This document shows positions 1-7,086 of a DNA stretch of 62,541 bases, piece after piece. Positions within the stretch are counted from its first letter, which is position 1. Every line of letters starts with the position of its first letter. The notes under the pieces are model-generated. The model was not told the origin of the DNA. It saw only the letters and a list, made by a program, of their open reading frames with translations, and did not search any database. The stretch lies in contig JAEUPJ010000052.1 of assembly GCA_016790285.1 (NCBI GenBank), positions 1 to 62,541 of the forward strand, in the 5' to 3' direction. The stretch comes from Roseateles sp. (lineage in GTDB: Bacteria; Pseudomonadota; Gammaproteobacteria; Burkholderiales; Burkholderiaceae_C). The position numbers were made by a program, and so were the translations under genes.

Positions 1-88
1 GCCACGGCAGCAGGGAAACCGGCACCGCAAAAGCCTTCAAAATCCACCCCAGCGTAACCCCTCGGGACGCCCGTTCCACCCACCTGTT

Positions 89-140
89 CCTGGCTCCATT
101 ACGGCGAACATCGGTGGCTCTATTACGGCGGTCGGTGACA
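89..140 (-). repeat. Tandem repeats resembling an IS21-family-like terminus
   Basis: Read on the minus strand, the motif CGCCGTAATRGAGCCA occurs twice (starting at 130 and at 106, period 24), and each copy is preceded by TGT (140 and 110). Ends beginning TGT with internally repeated blocks are typical of IS21-family elements, but no transposase lies inside the window, so the family is inference. The outermost TGT falls inside the ImmA-like gene, whose reading frame ends in the repeat. The element would extend off the left edge. Confidence 0.4.
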
Positions 141-395
141 CTGCCCGCGGTGCAGCATCCAGTGCCCAAACTCGTGGCCGATTGAGAAGCGGTCTCGACC
201 CGCGGCCGGCGCAGGCCGAATCGTGGCGATGGCGCGGTCGCCGTACCCCACCAGCGTAGCCGCGCATCCGTCCAAGTCCGCCCGCTGAACGCGCATACCG
301 TGCATGAGCGCGAGCGCTTCCACGTCCAGCTCCCCTGGCGCAGAAATGCCGCACTCCTCGACCAAGGCCTCAGCCCGTTCCCCGGGTTCGGTCAC
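123..395 (-). pseudogene. ImmA/IrrE-family metallopeptidase, 3'-truncated
   Basis: Ninety residues are readable. The zinc-protease motif HEFGH is at residues 74-78, inside SIGHEFGHWMLHRG, the usual ImmA/IrrE context. Family members continue well beyond this point and supply a third acidic zinc ligand; here the frame runs into IS-end-like repeats at position 140 and stops after a few unrelated residues (HRPP). I therefore call it truncated and probably inactive. Its start overlaps the end of the upstream gene by 4 bases (ATGA), so it is the third gene of the leftward sigma-like unit. ImmA/IrrE proteases usually relieve repression by cutting a partner protein; in some CBASS loci a related peptidase (CapP) cuts the repressor CapH. 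A comparable role here is inference. Confidence 0.7.
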
Positions 396-799
396 TTGCC
401 GTTCTCGGCTTTCGCGTCCGCCAGAACCTGCTGCATGGTTGCGTACAGCCGCAGGATGTCCTCGTCGGACATCTCGTTAAGCTCCCGAGCAGCAAGCGTG
501 AACCTGGTGTCGTTCGCAGCTGCAGCAATGAACGCACGCGCTTCGGCGACCGAAACGGGTGCTGGCATGGCGGCTTCCTCAGCTTCAGCGCCGCGGGCGA
601 GCGCGGCTTTGGCAGCAGCAAACTTGCGCTTTGCGACAGCCGTCTTCGCTGAGCGCACCAACGCGAGGCCGAATGCACGCGCCTCCTCTTCCGTTGTTCC
701 GGCCAGGACTTCCGAATCAGGCGTCGCCACCAGGTCACGGAACTGCGCCTCTAGGAAGGCTGCGGTCGGATGCTTGTTTGAACTTTGTCCCATGGTCAT
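392..799 (-). CDS. Unknown small protein between the sigma-like and ImmA-like genes
   Basis: This 135-residue protein matches no family I recognise. It is rich in Ala, Glu and Arg and is probably mostly helical, with no signal peptide or membrane segment. A central Ala/Lys/Arg-rich stretch (about residues 50-75) and an acidic C-terminal half are visible. It overlaps the sigma-like gene upstream (796-799) and the ImmA-like gene downstream (392-395) by 4 bases each, which points to translational coupling and one functional unit. By position it could be the partner that holds the sigma-like protein inactive and is cleaved by the peptidase, as an anti-sigma factor would be, but nothing in its sequence proves this. 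Confidence 0.6.
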   Translation of the reverse strand: MTMGQSSNKHPTAAFLEAQFRDLVATPDSEVLAGTTEEEARAFGLALVRSAKTAVAKRKFAAAKAALARGAEAEEAAMPAPVSVAEARAFIAAAANDTRFTLAARELNEMSDEDILRLYATMQQVLADAKAENGK

Positions 800-1377
800 T
801 GCCCCTTTTGTTGAAGGGAAGCAAGCTTGCGTTCCAGCTTCTTGCGGAGCGCGTCGAACTGCTTCTGGTCAAGGCCCAAAGCCGCAGCAGCTTCAGGTCC
901 GCTGAGACCCTCCATGCGTACTGTGAGCAGGTCCTCGAGCTCTTGGTCACTGGTCACGAGCTCCTCGAGGGCATCGAAGAGTTCTTGCGCCGCGGCGTAG
1001 TCCTCGGGAGTGTTCAGTTCGACAGCGTAGTCGAGATGCGGTTCGTCGTCTTCCGGTGCCTCGTCCAGCGTCGTGGTCTGCCGTCGACTGTCGATAGGTG
1101 CGTTCTTGACCTTCTTCCGCTCGTTGAAGGCCACGCCATCCATAGCGGTGGCCAGCGTGACGAGCGCCGGTACGCCACGTCGCCACCCTCGGTCTTCCCC
1201 AAGCAGTTTCTCCACGACCTTGTGCAGTAGGTCGTCACTCGACATCTCCGTCAGGCCGACCGCGCGCTCGCGAGCCAAGCTCCTCGCCCGCTCCCAGTCG
1301 GCGGGGGGCATAGCGTTCAACGCTGCCTCCACCTCTGCGCCGCTTAGGTACTCGTGTTTTTCGGACCTTGTCCGCAT
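796..1377 (-). CDS. Sigma-70-like (ECF-type) factor
   Basis: The 193-residue protein has a sigma-like layout. An N-terminal helical part (about 20-100) contains EMSSDDLLHKVVEKLL, reminiscent of region 2. An acidic linker follows, and the C-terminal part (about 130-190) carries GLSGPEAAAALGLDQKQFDALRKKL, which reads as a region-4 helix-turn-helix. There is no effector domain. A GAGAGG ribosome-binding site lies just before the ATG at 1377. The gene heads a tightly overlapping unit with an unknown protein and an ImmA-like peptidase, and it is divergent from the CBASS cap5 gene. A bipartite motif upstream of this gene recurs before cap5 and cdn, so a plausible role is to transcribe its own unit and the CBASS genes. 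Assignment to a specific sigma group is uncertain. Confidence 0.6.
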   Translation of the reverse strand: MRTRSEKHEYLSGAEVEAALNAMPPADWERARSLARERAVGLTEMSSDDLLHKVVEKLLGEDRGWRRGVPALVTLATAMDGVAFNERKKVKNAPIDSRRQTTTLDEAPEDDEPHLDYAVELNTPEDYAAAQELFDALEELVTSDQELEDLLTVRMEGLSGPEAAAALGLDQKQFDALRKKLERKLASLQQKGQ

Positions 1378-1393
1378 CGCTTGCCTCTCTCCC

Positions 1394-1423
1394 GTAGGAC
1401 TCTCGACGTGTAGTCAGTCGGAC
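1394..1423 (-). promoter_or_regulatory. Candidate promoter of the sigma-like unit (shared motif, copy 1)
   Basis: On the minus strand GTCCGACT (1423-1416) is followed, 19 bases from its start, by GAGAGTCCTAC (1404-1394). The same two boxes occur before cap5 and cdn with an 18-base offset. The second box ends 16 bases before the ATG at 1377, which leaves only a very short leader. Its place before the sigma-like gene suggests autoregulation. Confidence 0.5.
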
Positions 1424-1449
1424 GCTGGAAATTTATTTCTTTTGTGCGC

Positions 1450-1478
1450 GTCCAGACGCCCGTTCCTGAGAGTCTTAC
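1450..1478 (+). promoter_or_regulatory. Candidate promoter of cap5 (shared motif, copy 2)
   Basis: GTCCAGAC (1450-1457) is followed by GAGAGTCTTAC (1468-1478), offset 18. It is divergent from copy 1, with the two GTCC boxes 27 bases apart around an A/T-rich stretch. The box ends 91 bases before the chosen cap5 start at 1570, so a sizeable leader is implied. Confidence 0.5.
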
Positions 1479-1569
1479 CGACTGTACCGCCCGGCCACCG
1501 GTTCGTCAGTGGCCCGGTGGCTCGCTTGACCAGCGCCAAACTACACCTCGAAAGCGGCCCACGACCCCA

Positions 1570-2697
1570 ATGGCCACGAACCACAAACGACTGCCCATCC
1601 CGCTGCCGGTTCGGCACAGCCTCTGGATTGCCGCCGCTGGGCGATGCGAGTTCCGCGGCTGCAACGAACCGGTGTCGCGGGACTTCCTGACGAAGCGCAC
1701 CGCGTACGTTGGCGAGCTCGCACACATCGTGGGCGACAGCCCCGACGCCCCCCGCGGCGACCTCGTTCGCTCGAAGCAGCTCGCGCAAGACGAGCGAAAC
1801 CTGATGCTCATGTGCTACGGGTGCCACAAGCGCATTGACCGTCACGGCAAGGCCAATGGGTACAGCGAGGCTGACCTGCTGGCGATGAAACGGGAACACG
1901 AGGCTCGCGTGGAGCTCATTTATTCGTCCACGGGCGTCAAGCAGACACTGCCGGTGCTGATGACGTTTCCGATTGCGAGCCACACGCCAGTCATCGACAT
2001 CCGCGACATCAACCACGCCATCATCGAAAACTCGAAGTACAAGCGATTCCCGTCTGGGAGGCACGTTCACATCGACCGGAGCGACTTCGACATCACGGAC
2101 GGGTCACCTGACTTCTGGGCGCGGGCGGAGGCGACGCTCACGAGCATCTTCGAGACGCGGCTTCGACCAGAACTGACTGCCCGGCACGCTCCATCCCACC
2201 TGACCATCGCCGCGTTCGCGCCCATTCCCCTGCTCATGAAGCTCGGGGCGCTGCTGGGCGACAAGATGGACGCCAGCGTGCTGGACCTGCCGGTTGAGCG
2301 CTGGCTTTGGGATACGCGCACAGATGTCGCGGCGCCCAACTGGCAGTTTGACGTACCGGCGCAACTTCCGCGTGTCGTTGCAGTCGAGGTGGGCGTGTCG
2401 AGCCGGGTGACGGGTGCACTGCCGCCGGAAGGCGCGCCAGTTCTGAGGTTCGAGGCTGCGGCGCCCAATCGGGGAATCATCCGGACCGAGGCCCACCTGC
2501 AGGAGTTTCGAGCCCGCTGCAATGCGTTCTTCGTGGCGCTGACCGCGGCCGGCGCTCGCGTCGTGCACATCTTCCCCGCTACGCCCTTGTGCGCAAGCGT
2601 TGAGCTGGGAAGGCTGCTCTTGCCAAAGACGCTCGAAGAGGTCCACGTCTGGGACCGGCAAGCACCGACCTGGGTCCATGCCCTTCGCCTGAAGTAG
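1570..2697 (+). CDS. cap5: CBASS effector Cap5: HNH nuclease fused to SAVED sensor
   Basis: In CBASS, Cap5 is a DNA-degrading effector switched on when its SAVED domain binds the cyclic nucleotide made by the CD-NTase. From the ATG at 1570 it is 375 residues. The HNH domain (about 15-115) has paired cysteines RCEFRGC (26, 31) and MCYGC (82, 85), AHI with His52, and CHKRID with His86, the pattern of HNH nucleases with a structural zinc. The C-terminal half (about 190-370) has the SAVED signature VHIFPATPLCASVELGRLL and a final W-rich strand. An in-frame GTG upstream at 1444 would overlap the candidate promoter, so I prefer 1570, where homology begins. The next gene is the CD-NTase, 109 bases on. 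Confidence 0.88.
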   Translation: MATNHKRLPIPLPVRHSLWIAAAGRCEFRGCNEPVSRDFLTKRTAYVGELAHIVGDSPDAPRGDLVRSKQLAQDERNLMLMCYGCHKRIDRHGKANGYSEADLLAMKREHEARVELIYSSTGVKQTLPVLMTFPIASHTPVIDIRDINHAIIENSKYKRFPSGRHVHIDRSDFDITDGSPDFWARAEATLTSIFETRLRPELTARHAPSHLTIAAFAPIPLLMKLGALLGDKMDASVLDLPVERWLWDTRTDVAAPNWQFDVPAQLPRVVAVEVGVSSRVTGALPPEGAPVLRFEAAAPNRGIIRTEAHLQEFRARCNAFFVALTAAGARVVHIFPATPLCASVELGRLLLPKTLEEVHVWDRQAPTWVHALRLK

Positions 2698-2717
2698 CCC
2701 GGCGCCGCCACGACGGT

Positions 2718-2746
2718 GTCCAACTTCGACCGCTCGAGAGTCTTAC
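2718..2746 (+). promoter_or_regulatory. Candidate promoter of the CD-NTase gene (shared motif, copy 3)
   Basis: GTCCAACT (2718-2725) is followed by GAGAGTCTTAC (2736-2746), offset 18, exactly as before cap5. It lies in the 109-base gap between cap5 and the CD-NTase and ends 60 bases before the GTG start at 2807, so cdn and the E2 gene could be transcribed separately from cap5. Confidence 0.5.
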
Positions 2747-2806
2747 TGCCCAGGGCGCCCGGAAGTCGAGCGTGACGCCCAACCCCAGCTAGAAGAAGAG
2801 GTTAAC

Positions 2807-4027
2807 GTGCATCGCGACTTTCCCATGACCCTGCCCAGCAATGAAGATGCGCTCGTCGGCGCATCCGGCGCGCTGGCCGCCATCACCCAGGCGCACTCAC
2901 TGAGCGACACCGAACGCGAGCGGTTGAAGAGCAGCTACGAGTCCATCGGCGAGTTCCTGAGCGAGCACCCGTTCTTTGGCGGGCTCACCGTCGAGGTTCA
3001 TCCCCAGGGCTCGATGGCAATCGGCACGACGACCAAGCCGGAGGGCAAGGCGGAGTTTGACGTTGACCTGGTGGCCCGGCTGACCTCGTCGGCACAGCGG
3101 CAAGACGCGGTGTACCTGCTCCAACAGCTGGACGAGGCGATGGGTGAGTACGCCGAGCGGCACGACCTCAAGGTCGAGCCCAAGCGTCGGTGCACCCAAG
3201 TGCAGTACGCGAACGCCATGCATACCGACGTGACCCCGGTCATCGACTGGCCGAGCCATCTCGAGGCTTACGGCGATGTGGCGGGTCTGGTTCCGGACCG
3301 CGAGCGCGGGGAACATCTGGGGACCAACCCTCGTGGATACGTCCGCTTCTTCAACGACGCGGCGGCGCTCCTGCCGAAGTTCTCCTTGATGGAGTCACGC
3401 CAAGCGCTTGCCAAGGCTGACGTGCTGCCCCTGCCGGGGCCCTCGGCATGGGCAAGACCGCTGGCTCGCTATGTCCAGCTCTTCAAGATTCACAGGAACA
3501 TCCTGTTCGCCGCTCACCCGGAGCTCGCGCCGACCAGCACGTTCATCACGACGCAGGTGGCGTTGGCCTACGCTGACTTGGTGCGGCCGGGCGCGACCTT
3601 CCAATCCCCCGTTCACCTGCTGCTCGCCATCTTCGCGAAGATGCCGGAGTACGTCAGTGTGGGATACCGTGATGGCCGCGAGCACTGGGTGCTCTGCAAC
3701 CCGACGCACCGTAGGGAAAACCTTGCCGACCGTATGAACTCGGGTGACCGCCAGGACGCCTACCGTCAGTGGCGGGCGCGATTCGCCCACGACGTCGCCA
3801 GCTTGTCTGAGATGTACTTGCCGCACGGCGCAGGAGTAAAGGTCCTAGCCACCTCAGTCCAGAACAGCTTTGGGACCCGAGCTAGCAAGGCCTTGACGGA
3901 CTCGTACGCGGCCGGAGCGGCACGCGAGCGCGCCAACGGTATGACCCGCATCTACGTTCCGACAGCAGCTGGTGCGGCTGCGGTCTTGCCGATTGCTTCG
4001 CGCGCGCACACCTTCTACGGCGACTGA
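2807..4027 (+). CDS. CBASS CD-NTase (cGAS/DncV-like cyclic nucleotide synthase), CdnG-like
   Basis: This 406-residue enzyme would make the cyclic oligonucleotide alarm signal when phage is sensed. The nucleotidyltransferase core is clear: HPQGSMAIGT at 65-74 (GS at 68-69), the metal-binding pair D85/D87 in EFDVDLVARL, and a third acidic residue D141 in HTDVTPVIDW. The C-terminal part has LCNPTHRRENLADRMN, typical of the OAS/cGAS-like helical domain. Cap5 partnered by an E2-only module fits clade G, for which the Asticcacaulis CdnG-Cap5 pair uses 3',2'-cGAMP, but the clade and product here are inference. The GTG start is chosen because AAGAGG (2796-2801) sits 5 bases upstream; ATG at 2825 lacks this. 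Its stop overlaps the next start by one base (TGATG). Confidence 0.88.
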   Translation: MHRDFPMTLPSNEDALVGASGALAAITQAHSLSDTERERLKSSYESIGEFLSEHPFFGGLTVEVHPQGSMAIGTTTKPEGKAEFDVDLVARLTSSAQRQDAVYLLQQLDEAMGEYAERHDLKVEPKRRCTQVQYANAMHTDVTPVIDWPSHLEAYGDVAGLVPDRERGEHLGTNPRGYVRFFNDAAALLPKFSLMESRQALAKADVLPLPGPSAWARPLARYVQLFKIHRNILFAAHPELAPTSTFITTQVALAYADLVRPGATFQSPVHLLLAIFAKMPEYVSVGYRDGREHWVLCNPTHRRENLADRMNSGDRQDAYRQWRARFAHDVASLSEMYLPHGAGVKVLATSVQNSFGTRASKALTDSYAAGAARERANGMTRIYVPTAAGAAAVLPIASRAHTFYGD

Positions 4028-4464
4028 TGAGGTACGGGGGCGCATCCGCGGACAAGTCACTTGCGCTGCAGGCGATGCACCTGCAAGCGCTTGGGCTACC
4101 AGGAGCGCGTACCTCGATACCGGGCGGCCGCCAGCTCGAGTACGAGTTCGATGTCGCCCCCTTCCCGGGCGCGCGCACCTACAGGTGCCGAATCATGCTC
4201 AAGAAGGATGGCAGCTCGCCCAAGGCTTTCGTTCTGTCTCCCAACCTGCACGAGTTGGCCGAGGGGAAGAAGCTGCCGCACGTGTACCAGCATGACGGTA
4301 AGAGCTCACGCCTCTGCCTGTACTTCCCTGCCGACAACGAGTGGCTGCCGAACATGCTGCTGGCGGAGACCCTCGTCGCCTGGACCATCGACTGGCTACG
4401 GTTCTTCGAATTGTGGTTAGTGGACGGCGAGTGGCGAGGGGGAGGGCGGCACCCGGAAGCGTAG
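4027..4464 (+). CDS. CBASS E2-like protein (short type II, no E1 or JAB partner)
   Basis: This is a 145-residue E2 (ubiquitin-conjugating enzyme)-like protein. The segment LPHVYQHDGKSSRLCLYFP is laid out like the canonical E2 active-site strand (HPN..., G-x-ICL), which places the catalytic cysteine at C97; the following EWLPNMLLAETLVAWTIDWL matches the WSP...ll helix. In type II CBASS an E2, with or without an E1, attaches the CD-NTase C-terminus to a target and thereby primes it. No E1 (ThiF-like) or JAB peptidase gene is nearby, so this is the short variant. It is translationally coupled to the CD-NTase by a one-base stop/start overlap. The C-terminal GEWRGGGRHP is a conserved tail of this family. 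Confidence 0.78.
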   Translation: MRYGGASADKSLALQAMHLQALGLPGARTSIPGGRQLEYEFDVAPFPGARTYRCRIMLKKDGSSPKAFVLSPNLHELAEGKKLPHVYQHDGKSSRLCLYFPADNEWLPNMLLAETLVAWTIDWLRFFELWLVDGEWRGGGRHPEA

Positions 4465-4670
4465 CGGCTTCTCTCTTTCCGGTGCACTGCCGCTGCGGTC
4501 CGAAGGGCCTGATGTCGACGGCCTTCGGGCATCAGCGTGAGGGTGGTCCAATCTCCAGGCAAAGCGGCAAGTCCTGGGGGGCGGACCTAGCTGGATTTGG
4601 CGCTCGAAGGCGCAGGTGTCCCCATCCAATGCTTGGCGGCGGCGGCCGGGAGGCTCCCTGCGCTACGTGC

Positions 4671-4876
4671 TATACTGCGTAGACGGATGCTCGCTTGAGA
4701 TGCAGGTACTTTTGGTACACAGCACATAAGCGAAGTGCGCCACCCTCCGGCTGCAAGGTCGGGCGGGAGTCATCCGAGGGGCCATCGGCGATAATTGCCC
4801 TAGTTGAGCGGAGTGCTGCCCGTCATCAACTTAAGTCTAAGCAAACGGGCCCACGCTATGTGGGCTTTTGTTTTTC
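4671..4876 (+). ncRNA. Candidate structured leader or small RNA
   Basis: A good -10 hexamer TATACT (4671-4676), with only a weak -35, precedes about 195 bases with nested pairing. TCGCTT (4691-4696) pairs with AAGCGA (4728-4733); inside this, TGC pairs with GCA and GTAC with GTAC around a TTTTG loop. Further on, GCCCGT (4818-4823) pairs with ACGGGC (4845-4850), sharing two bases with the terminator stem that follows. The product could be a free-standing small RNA or an attenuator leader controlling the downstream two-gene unit. No RNA family is recognised and no reverse transcriptase is nearby. Confidence 0.42.
4849..4875 (+). terminator. Intrinsic terminator directly upstream of the PRTase-like operon
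   Basis: The stem GCCCAC (4849-4854) / GTGGGC (4860-4865) has loop GCTAT and is followed by TTTTGTTTTT (4866-4875). It ends only 11 bases before the ATG at 4887, an arrangement typical of attenuated leaders or of an sRNA gene abutting a coding region. Confidence 0.75.
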
Positions 4877-4886
4877 TGGAGCCCGC

Positions 4887-5792
4887 ATGACCCTTCCGAC
4901 GAGCGCCCCAACTAAAGAGGCCATCGAGCGGCTCCGTGCCGAACTGAATGAACGGCTGCTGGGTCTGGCTGATGATGAGATTGTTGGTGCGCAGCTAGGC
5001 ACCCACTTGAACAGGCTCTTGTCGCCGGCCTCGTACAAGTCATGGCTGAGCGCTGGGCAGAACCTGCGTTCGTTTGCTGAGTCTTACCTAGTCGGCCTCG
5101 TATCGTCGACGGGCCGGCGCAAGGGCTTGGACTACGTCTACGCGATTGAAGGCAAGGCTAAGCCCATTCTGCAGACCTTCAACGGCGACCTCTGGAAGGC
5201 CTTCTGCTCGACAAGGCCCGTTCAAAAAATCGCATACGACGGCGCAACAAGTACTCTGTCTCTTCTGCCCCTCAGTTCAGATGCAACCGAAGGCCATCTC
5301 ATTGCGTCATTAAGCCAAGTCGAGCACCAAGTTATCCGCGAGGGATTCATCGCTAAGCTGGGAAATGGCCACCGTGCAGTCGAGCAGCTGCAGGTCATCG
5401 CCAGCAATCACGGCGAGGGTGCCTATACAAACTGGGTTGGCGCTCTTAAGGCGGAGCCGGGGTTATTTCGGGAATGGGGCATTTTCCGAGTCGAGTCGAT
5501 AAAAGCCAAGTTCGCTGAGCGCTTGAGCGACTTGGCCCTGGATGAGCCGGCGCGCACTCGGCTGCTCCAAGAATTCGAGGCCGACTATCTGAGTCAGCGT
5601 AAGCCTTCCCGTGCGCTCGCGCAGCCCATTTCCCCTCAGGCGGTCGGCTCGTCACCAGCTGGCCGGAGCACAGATAGTGGGCATCGCGACTTGCTCATGA
5701 GAGCCATCGCCTCGCTCACCGACGAGCAGCTGGCGCGAATTCTCGTCCCGCTTGACCTAGTAGCGGCAATCGTCGGGCAGCGAAAGCAGTAA
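4887..5792 (+). CDS. Unknown protein paired with the PRTase-like gene; possible LOTUS-like N-terminus
   Basis: The protein is 301 residues and matches no family I can name with certainty. Residues about 10-85 (IERLRAELNERLL, then IVGAQLGTHLNRLLSP...LRSFAESYL) resemble the layout of an OST-HTH/LOTUS or other winged-helix domain that binds RNA or G-quadruplexes; this is a loose visual match. The middle is mixed alpha/beta, a Ser/Pro-rich linker spans about 235-262, and the C-terminus is a helical tail. The start at 4887 is preceded by GGA and follows a terminator; an in-frame upstream extension to 4695 would translate through the structured RNA and is rejected. The next gene starts 10 bases after its stop, so the two are co-expressed. 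Confidence 0.6.
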   Translation: MTLPTSAPTKEAIERLRAELNERLLGLADDEIVGAQLGTHLNRLLSPASYKSWLSAGQNLRSFAESYLVGLVSSTGRRKGLDYVYAIEGKAKPILQTFNGDLWKAFCSTRPVQKIAYDGATSTLSLLPLSSDATEGHLIASLSQVEHQVIREGFIAKLGNGHRAVEQLQVIASNHGEGAYTNWVGALKAEPGLFREWGIFRVESIKAKFAERLSDLALDEPARTRLLQEFEADYLSQRKPSRALAQPISPQAVGSSPAGRSTDSGHRDLLMRAIASLTDEQLARILVPLDLVAAIVGQRKQ

Positions 5793-5802
5793 CGAATTCA
5801 AG

Positions 5803-7086
5803 ATGCCCGGGCTTTGCGTTGCCATTCCGCACGAGGGGGCGGAGAGGCTTTTCAAGCAGTGGGACGAGCGAACCGCCGGGGGGTGGCGCAGTCGCGTTCG
5901 TGTTGAGTACTTGACTGCGGACAAGGAGGCCAACGACGGGATTGTGGGCGACTTGGCGAAGGGCCATGGCAACAGGGTCCTAGCCTCGCATCACCTGACG
6001 TCGGTGGCCTGCTCGCGCCTATATCGTAACGTTCAACGGCTCCAAGCCCACCGATTGTCGGAGGAGGTGTTGCGGAGTTTCGAGGCTGACGGTCTAGACT
6101 GGCGAAGCCGGGCTGCTAGAGAGTGCGCAAAAACTCCATTCAAGTGCATTTCTGCCGAGGAATGGGTGCGGCAGTTTGAACTGGTTGACCCTGCTAATGG
6201 GCGTAGAGCAGGGGCGGCTCTCTTGGCGCAGTTTCGAATCCTGGCTGCTCCGGAGTTGGCCGAGTGCTTTTCCAACCTCCCCGACGTTGACCTGCACGCC
6301 ACCTTCTACGGTGCAGACCCGCACAGTGGCGATTTGGCTCTGGTTCATGTTTTGTCCGCCAGAGTAAATAACGCAAAGCTTGGTGAGTGCACGAAACTTC
6401 CTAAGCTGAAGCCGGCCGCGAAAGTTCGCTTGTACTGCGATGGCTCCTGGAGTGGTGGAGAGACCCATCGCCGAATATCTTGCCTCTTCACATCGTGTGT
6501 GAAGAAGGCTAGTTCGCTAACGGTATCGAATAGCCTCGACGTTCACGTGGCTGTGATAACGGATGCGGCCAAAGCAACTATAGACGCCAAGCTGGCAGAT
6601 TTGGCGTCAAGCGGCCGAATTACGAAAGGTAAGGTCAAGGTCACCTTTCCACCTGGAAATCCTTTGACGGTGGCTGGTGTTTACACGGGGCAAAAGGGAT
6701 TGGCCTTTCAGGACGTACGGTTACTTGAGTATGTCGGGGAAGACCCATACTTGCTGAAACGCCTTTGCAAACGGATTGGCGAACAACTGGCCAAAGATAA
6801 AGCCCTCGGTACCAATGACATCGCCTCTTGTATCGGGTTTTCGCATAGTCTTCCGGGTGCAATGCTTCCTCTTTTCGCCCTAGGCGGGAAGAAGGTGACT
6901 GGCGCTGACGGACGGACGTTTGTTTGGAAGTCGCTACTGCACAGTGAGCACTTCTCAAGTGGGGCGCCTGACCAAGCTGGCTATCATTGCGAAGAGTGTC
7001 CGCTCGCCGATAGAGGCCAAGCAGGTGCTGGGGCTGGCGCTGGCGCCGCCCCTTCGCAGTCACCCGCGAGCACAGACGCAACGTGA
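5803..7086 (+). CDS. Phosphoribosyltransferase-like protein (PRTase-CE-like), probable defence effector
   Basis: The protein has 427 residues. KVRLYCDGSWSGGETHRR at about 207-224 resembles the PRPP-binding loop of type I phosphoribosyltransferases (hydrophobic strand, acidic pair, then a T/S-G loop), with DG in place of the usual DD. A CHC2-like cysteine cluster YHCEECP lies near 395-402, followed by a Gly/Ala-rich tail. PRTase-like proteins with such motifs (the PRTase-CE group) have been proposed from comparative genomics as components of prokaryotic conflict systems. Position 10 bases after an unknown gene, beside CBASS and next to mobile-element debris, supports a defence role. Its substrate and target are unknown. 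Base composition is noticeably lower in G+C than the core genes. Confidence 0.5.
   Translation: MPGLCVAIPHEGAERLFKQWDERTAGGWRSRVRVEYLTADKEANDGIVGDLAKGHGNRVLASHHLTSVACSRLYRNVQRLQAHRLSEEVLRSFEADGLDWRSRAARECAKTPFKCISAEEWVRQFELVDPANGRRAGAALLAQFRILAAPELAECFSNLPDVDLHATFYGADPHSGDLALVHVLSARVNNAKLGECTKLPKLKPAAKVRLYCDGSWSGGETHRRISCLFTSCVKKASSLTVSNSLDVHVAVITDAAKATIDAKLADLASSGRITKGKVKVTFPPGNPLTVAGVYTGQKGLAFQDVRLLEYVGEDPYLLKRLCKRIGEQLAKDKALGTNDIASCIGFSHSLPGAMLPLFALGGKKVTGADGRTFVWKSLLHSEHFSSGAPDQAGYHCEECPLADRGQAGAGAGAGAAPSQSPASTDAT

Follow-up and report, generated by a model that had tools for sequence, protein, structure and literature searches.

In the window, by which we mean the whole 62,541-nucleotide stretch of Roseateles sp. 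DNA analysed here, a gene for a sigma-like protein diverges from a CBASS operon, and the question raised by the locus is what reads the short two-box sites that stand before both. The earlier note had described three such sites, each a GTCCR box followed by GAGAGTCYTAC, and all three are present as it described them, at 1423-1394 on the minus strand and at 1450-1478 and 2718-2746 on the plus strand, with offsets of 19, 18 and 18, in intergenic positions and in the orientations given there. The 11-base second box also agrees, reading GAGAGTCTTAC in two copies and GAGAGTCCTAC in one. The features of the region are the following.

1..141, no strand assigned: terminal part of a repeat, probably an insertion sequence, lying at the contig edge and interrupting capP; positions 1-125 occur in seven genome copies
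123..395, minus: CapP/ImmA-type (M78) protease, N-terminal 90 aa, with an HEFGH motif (PADLOC capP 9.1e-20)
392..799, minus: 'mid' protein, 135 aa (P0002), proposed anti-sigma with a CapH-like C-terminal part (PADLOC capH profile)
796..1377, minus: ECF-type sigma factor, divergent member, 193 aa (P0001; TIGR02937 E 0.0029, below its cut-off)
1394..1423, minus: predicted promoter of the sigma-mid-CapP operon, -35-like GTCCG at 1423-1419
1399-1394, minus: -10-like TCCTAC of that predicted promoter, inside GAGAGTCCTAC
1450..1478, plus: predicted cap5 promoter, -35-like GTCCA and -10-like TCTTAC inside GAGAGTCTTAC
1570..2697, plus: cap5, HNH-SAVED effector of CBASS (PADLOC effector 4.3e-101, Pfam SAVED 2e-22)
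2718..2746, plus: second predicted CBASS-operon promoter, upstream of the CD-NTase gene, GTCCA and GAGAGTCTTAC
2807..4027, plus: CD-NTase of CBASS (PADLOC cyclase 1.2e-100)
4027..4464, plus: E2-like protein of CBASS (PADLOC E2 3.9e-45)

The sigma-side site stops 17 positions short of the sigma ATG (1377), the cap5-side site lies upstream of the cap5 ATG at 1570, and the third occupies the gap between cap5 (end 2697) and the CD-NTase gene (start 2807). The mechanical open reading frame of cap5 begins at GTG 1444, and the start is taken as ATG 1570 because the PADLOC match begins at residue 48. Before the sigma gene, the predicted -35 and -10 boxes stand at the 16-18 bp spacing that an ECF sigma factor's own promoter would have. 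CD-NTase, effector and E2 together make up a CBASS with E2; no E1 is found among the eight proteins scanned from 123-7086, and the system, having no adjoining E1, is one that we take to be type II short. Downstream of it, two genes at 4887-7086, the second of which weakly matches PRTase-CE / PRTase_III-A (PADLOC 0.002), may form another candidate defence pair. On the other side, the mid and sigma genes share 4 bases of overlap and capP is cut just after its HEFGH motif. Homology to the corresponding locus of Ideonella benzenivorans (L056) starts at 142, which together with the seven copies of positions 1-125 indicates that capP is interrupted by a repeat, probably an insertion sequence. Since CapP is broken in this strain, its defence switch may be stuck, or locked.

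The statistical weight of the sites belongs to the pair of boxes. The pattern GTCCR-N(12-18)-GAGAGTCYTAC has three exact matches in the window and none in 100 dinucleotide shuffles, while the second box alone, at up to two mismatches, falls below expectation with 5 window matches against 12. A wider regulon was sought in the strain's own genome (5.88 Mb) by exact and mismatch searches and none was found: no further exact copy occurs with spacers of 13-16, and at up to three mismatches with a fixed offset of 18 there are 38 matches where the reversed control gives 129, and the closest one apart from the three sites, on contig C47, carries two mismatches, so that there is no sign of a wider motif family. 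All three sites are kept in L056, where the sigma protein is 96% identical and the CD-NTase-side copy lies at 5632-5660; between the two loci there is 1 change in 45 box positions versus 22 in about 255 other intergenic positions, changes too few to prove selection.

The gene adjoining the boxes belongs to a divergent ECF-type sigma family, an assignment that is weak for P0001 alone and convincing for the family. Individually, P0001 stays under the curated sigma cut-offs, with 17.2 bits against the 42.9 of TIGR02937 and nothing above cut-off in Pfam. Among the 27 family members, 16 match TIGR02937 at E<=0.01 and 6 match Pfam Sigma70_r2, and the 27-row family profile retrieves ten PDB sequences at E<=1, all of them sigma factors, four at E<=0.001 and the best at 6.1e-6. 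An AlphaFold model built from five rows, of moderate confidence (pLDDT 72, pTM 0.44), shows two four-helix blocks (4+4 helices), and model and family profile agree with sigma2 and sigma4 domains joined by a linker. The top ten Foldseek entries for this model are all sigma factors, the best at E 0.0028 and none at E<=0.001, with TM-scores of about 0.3 for the top entries; the low TM may reflect a free arrangement of the two domains. A single-protein scan of viral contigs gives no relative.

The sigma gene is part of a conserved trio. All 29 loci of the main set, including the window with its cut protease gene, carry genes for sigma, mid and protease, a count that speaks of linkage and not of frequency, the loci having been found through sigma searches and a search of plasmids with the protease of L005. 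Three further loci (L097, L099, L100) bring the trio to 32 loci, and 21 of the 32 come from a deliberate search of the plasmid collection. Searches with P0001 alone find, besides its own genome, three of 299 family genomes (L005, L007, L008) and one of 369 class genomes (L010), the first profile finds none in the 398 genomes of the phylum sample, and the class of G691 and the family of G1324 give 1 of 385 and 3 of 40 genomes, all these genome-sample counts being lower bounds. Removed before counting were L059, L005 and L034 (same locus as L058) and L103 (copy of L041), whereas L044 and L054 were left out of the protein alignments only. L103, a copy of the Cereibacter locus, has its mid and protease annotated as several fragments. 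No sigma or mid gene accompanies any of the 30 capP-profile loci of the phylum sample; in L067, the one control capP locus looked at, the gene before the protease is by eye an HTH protein. L015/L027 have a weak mid match, and the protease is absent.

The operons beside the trio are of many kinds. By annotation or profile, CBASS genes adjoin it in the window, L056, L041, L046, L049, L055 and L060 (the last with a phospholipase effector and E1-E2), and ThiF or multiubiquitin genes, read here as Bub-like, in L013, L032, L043, L044, L047, L050, L051 and L057. In L042, ThiF stands with a patatin in what could be CBASS, a BilB-like protein lies beside the trio in L097, L099 has a Thoeris-type TIR protein (PADLOC ThsB 1.4e-129) and L040 a 'Beta' protein. 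DUF2188 or DUF3892 genes are found in L036, L037, L038, L053 and L054 (there behind IS21, the first element behind the outward site), and by eye also in L031, L033 and L099. The neighbour operon is without an assigned type in L039, L045, L048, L058 and L100, and behind the outward site of L052 no divergent gene is annotated. Behind the promoter, a 92-aa gene comes first in the divergent direction in L037 (4573-4851), L038 (4592-4870), L039 (4559-4837) and L041 (4570-4848), on the minus strand in all four; its copies are 65-78% identical, and in L041 it precedes the CBASS genes. An L053 gene of equal length is unrelated to it. In L058, the 313-aa protein encoded at 838-1779 (minus) behind the promoter unit matches nothing in Pfam or PADLOC within the limits applied, and its position suggests a candidate defence gene.

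The third member of the trio is a CapP-type M78 protease. The window fragment with its HEFGH motif already matches the PADLOC capP profile, and the intact 278-aa protease of L056 matches it over the full length (4.5e-61) and the solved CapP, PDB 7t5t, at 2.6e-8. A profile of the trio proteases scores 3.5e-19 to 8.8e-36 with 29 of the 30 capP loci of the phylum sample and 4.9e-80 to 3.6e-109 with three trio loci outside its training, which places the trio proteases, by sequence, in a clade separate from other CapP, with L013 (1e-37) as the exception. The thirtieth capP locus, L086, encodes a trio-clade protease at 1477-2163 (minus; 5.3e-85) with sigma and mid absent nearby. No cyclic-nucleotide sensor is recognised in the trio protease, and phage records hold no relative of the L005 protease.

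The check that the earlier note had named, a search for the motif at homologous loci, comes out positive in L056, L057, L058 and L060, which belong to the window's sigma clade: each has GTCC and, 20-21 bases on, GAGTC, before the sigma gene and before the divergent operon, with two such sites ahead of the patatin operon of L060. In more distant trio loci the GTCC-type box is followed by another kind of second box, alike on both sides; in other clades it is GCATA-like and in the same register, GCATAG replacing the TCYTAC of the window. The five GAGTC-type loci, a label set by the analyst, form one sigma clade with support of 100/100 among 27 rows, L100 (GAGAGC) lying outside that tree. An outward-facing pair of GTCC-type units, one of them before the sigma gene, could be placed by hand in 28 of the 32 loci. 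Across these 28 the gap between the two GTCC boxes ranges from 4 to 181 bp, and each GTCC keeps 22-24 bases from its own second-box core, plus or minus 1 being part of the site choice. L013, L032, L045 and L050 were not placed as outward pairs: there is no convincing pair in L032 or L045 and only one good site in L050, and L013, on a Planctomycetes plasmid, has tandem units, at 3828 before sigma and at 6042 before its ThiF-containing operon, the first genes of which are unannotated. Two loci with unusual boxes, L042 (TTCTGAAA/GGCATAG) and L047 (TCGGAATC/CGCANACA), show the same departure in both of their units.

Three comparisons put numbers to this pattern. When a matrix is built with the tested clade omitted and 220 bp are scanned (p floor 0.005), p<=0.05 is reached in 25 of 29 loci in the sigma direction, where L032, L042, L058 and L060 are missed and the match of L045 is without GTCC, and in 18 of 29 in the divergent direction. 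The divergent misses are the window, L013, L032, L042, L043, L044, L045, L056, L057, L058 and L060; in L043 and L044 the site lies outside the stretch that was scanned, and the window, whose divergent site has p 0.229 with the other clades' matrix, and four clade members have the GAGTC type. For loci outside the matrix training, the sigma and divergent p values are 0.018 and 0.002 (L097), 0.002 and 0.002 (L099) and 0.130 and 0.024 (L100). Sigma relatives without the protease (L027-L030, L035, L098) have no promoter unit, with none of 12 tests at p<=0.05, and across 2.5-3.8 kb of each of the 30 control capP loci the top matrix scores per strand run from 3.6 to 16.3, L089 being the highest. A motif-blind test, asking for a matching outward pair of two 8-base boxes within 300 bp, is significant at p<=0.05 in 15 of 29 loci and returns the promoter pair in 13 of these 15, the significant pair of L057 and L058 being another alignment; the window's own pair, at p 0.50, does not reach significance here. 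Within a locus, finally, 8.25 of 11 second-box positions agree, versus 5.05 between groups, and 7.96 of 10 first-box positions, versus 6.15 (24 loci having a site on either side; sites entered by hand for this and the spacing comparison, three of which the twin test had supplied), with a permutation p of 5e-5, the floor, for each box. The agreement persists when each group is reduced to one locus (18) and when the three twin-test loci are dropped (21).

Of the 27 mid proteins, 19 match the PADLOC capH profile (E<=0.1), the best at 5.8e-8; in the window protein the match covers residues 56-127 and profile positions 43-99 only, and in L053 a weak match (6.2e-4) extends over positions 3-99 of 103, nearly the whole profile. 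Comparison with Pfam, PDB sequences and PDB folds gives nothing convincing, neither a known anti-sigma domain nor a fold match, and the structure model is of low confidence. P0002 has no HTH match in Pfam at E<=1, and HTH models match one member each of the 27, the HTH_VI case being L013. This Planctomycetes-plasmid protein, Pla86 (4492-5058), runs on into a CapH-like HTH segment as a chimera of two controller types, and a two-sequence search with the profile of the 28 other mids finds its N-terminal segment kept at residues 12-61 (i-E 1.6e-5), as expected if the N-terminal part serves sigma. Mid is probably an anti-sigma that CapP cleaves, of which the N-terminal part would bind sigma and the CapH-like part would be the protease target.

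What the boxes are is best answered from their variation. That the second box differs by clade, agrees within a locus and stands at variable distance from its partner fits promoters read by the cognate sigma and not a palindromic operator, and to this reading we give a probability of about 0.85. Autoregulation of the sigma operon and control of the adjacent operon are, on the same motif evidence from homologous loci, well supported. The boxes might instead be operators at which a repressor, the CapH-like mid, acts over housekeeping promoters, with the sigma-like protein a bystander. In favour of this, GTCC boxes standing back to back give several loci a palindromic look, mid resembles CapH by profile (in L053 weakly, over nearly all of it), and CapH, CapW and CapS are all described as repressors in PMC13373217. 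A palindromic operator is, however, set aside as the main reading on account of the 4-181 bp variation between GTCC boxes, across which each unit keeps its internal distance; there are lone units too, the tandem ones of L013 and the one ahead of the window's CD-NTase gene, and HTH matches are wanting in P0002 and nearly so in its family. We regard the operator explanation as improbable. That some other sigma factor of the host reads the promoters, leaving the local protein a different role, would accommodate the weakness of P0001 by curated cut-offs, but it sits poorly with the lack of any other exact motif copy in the genome, with second-box variants that agree within loci, with a window type that tracks one sigma clade and with the absence of units beside the six sigma relatives that have no protease; it is very improbable.

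A closer competitor accepts the sigma-read promoters and changes what lies upstream of them: as a variant inside the best explanation, CapP might degrade sigma itself, or mid might be an adaptor or activator. The lack of a recognised anti-sigma domain or fold in mid would be explained in this way, but the gene order sigma-mid-protease, the CapH-like part of mid and the N-terminal segment that the Pla86 mid keeps joined to its CapH-like HTH segment all speak for mid as anti-sigma, and the variant is judged unlikely. The earlier note's proposal of sigma-read promoters, autoregulation and local control is well supported, with a refinement of both its ends: the regulator would be the trio and not the sigma factor alone, and it would serve many kinds of operon, CBASS being one of them.

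Under the preferred reading of the boxes as cognate-sigma promoters, free ECF-type sigma would start its own operon and the neighbouring defence operon, in the window CBASS from two promoters. Mid would otherwise hold sigma as an anti-sigma, until a danger signal, such as the single-stranded DNA suggested by analogy with CapH+CapP, activates CapP; active CapP would then cut mid, and the freed sigma would set off a positive-feedback burst of defence expression. Promoters, sigma family, trio and within-locus agreement are the parts supported by sequence. Activation by proteolysis is likely by analogy, and that it works through release of sigma we consider somewhat better than an even bet. Control by a private sigma factor would, if true, follow a different logic, silent by default, triggered by proteolysis, self-amplifying and insulated from host promoters, and this insulation may help the module to function after plasmid transfer to new hosts. 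It would also offer sigma/promoter pairs that are orthogonal by nature and can be tested as a set, and a short DNA signature that predicts candidate defence operons. The wider finding, as far as gene neighbourhoods tell, is a sigma/mid/CapP module that serves many operon kinds. We lean towards seeing in it a fourth class of immune-operon controller, in which CapP frees a private ECF sigma from a CapH-like anti-sigma and each operon has orthogonal promoters co-evolving with its sigma; on balance, this class would span Pseudomonadota and a Planctomycetes plasmid and CBASS, ubiquitin-like, Thoeris-type and YegP-like operons.

No description of the sigma/mid/CapP arrangement was found in searchable papers, preprints being outside that scope, and one could exist elsewhere. 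The local controllers described for CBASS and Bub operons, in the parts of PMC13373217 and PMC9122588 that concern them, are CapW/BrxR, CapH+CapP and CapK+CapS, all of them repressors. Like CapK+CapS and CapW/BrxR, the trio is a modular controller beside CBASS, Bub, Thoeris and YegP-type genes; these two, however, are repressors released by phosphorylation or ligand, and neither brings a sigma factor in the account of PMC13373217. CapH+CapP, an N-terminal-HTH repressor with an M78 protease that, once activated by ssDNA, cleaves its partner (as cited in PMC13373217), are the closest relatives: the trio protease resembles CapP from end to end in L056, directly follows a small protein resembling CapH and adjoins the same operon kinds, CBASS and Bub. 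The trio differs in adding a sigma factor, in having no recognised HTH in the small protein, Pla86 excepted, in a protease clade that is separate but for L013, and in a control that would be activation through private promoters instead of a repressor. Closest in logic is CalpL/CalpT/CalpS, the protease/anti-sigma/ECF-sigma cascade of type III CRISPR set out in the sections of PMC11417357 and PMC12751052 on that system, which likewise ties a protease, an anti-sigma (proposed in the trio) and an ECF-type sigma factor to antiviral defence. There the protease is a Lon-SAVED protein sensing cA4, whereas that of the trio is an M78 metalloprotease of CapP type, and the targets of the trio would be the sigma factor's own operon and the adjacent CBASS, ubiquitin-like or TIR operon.
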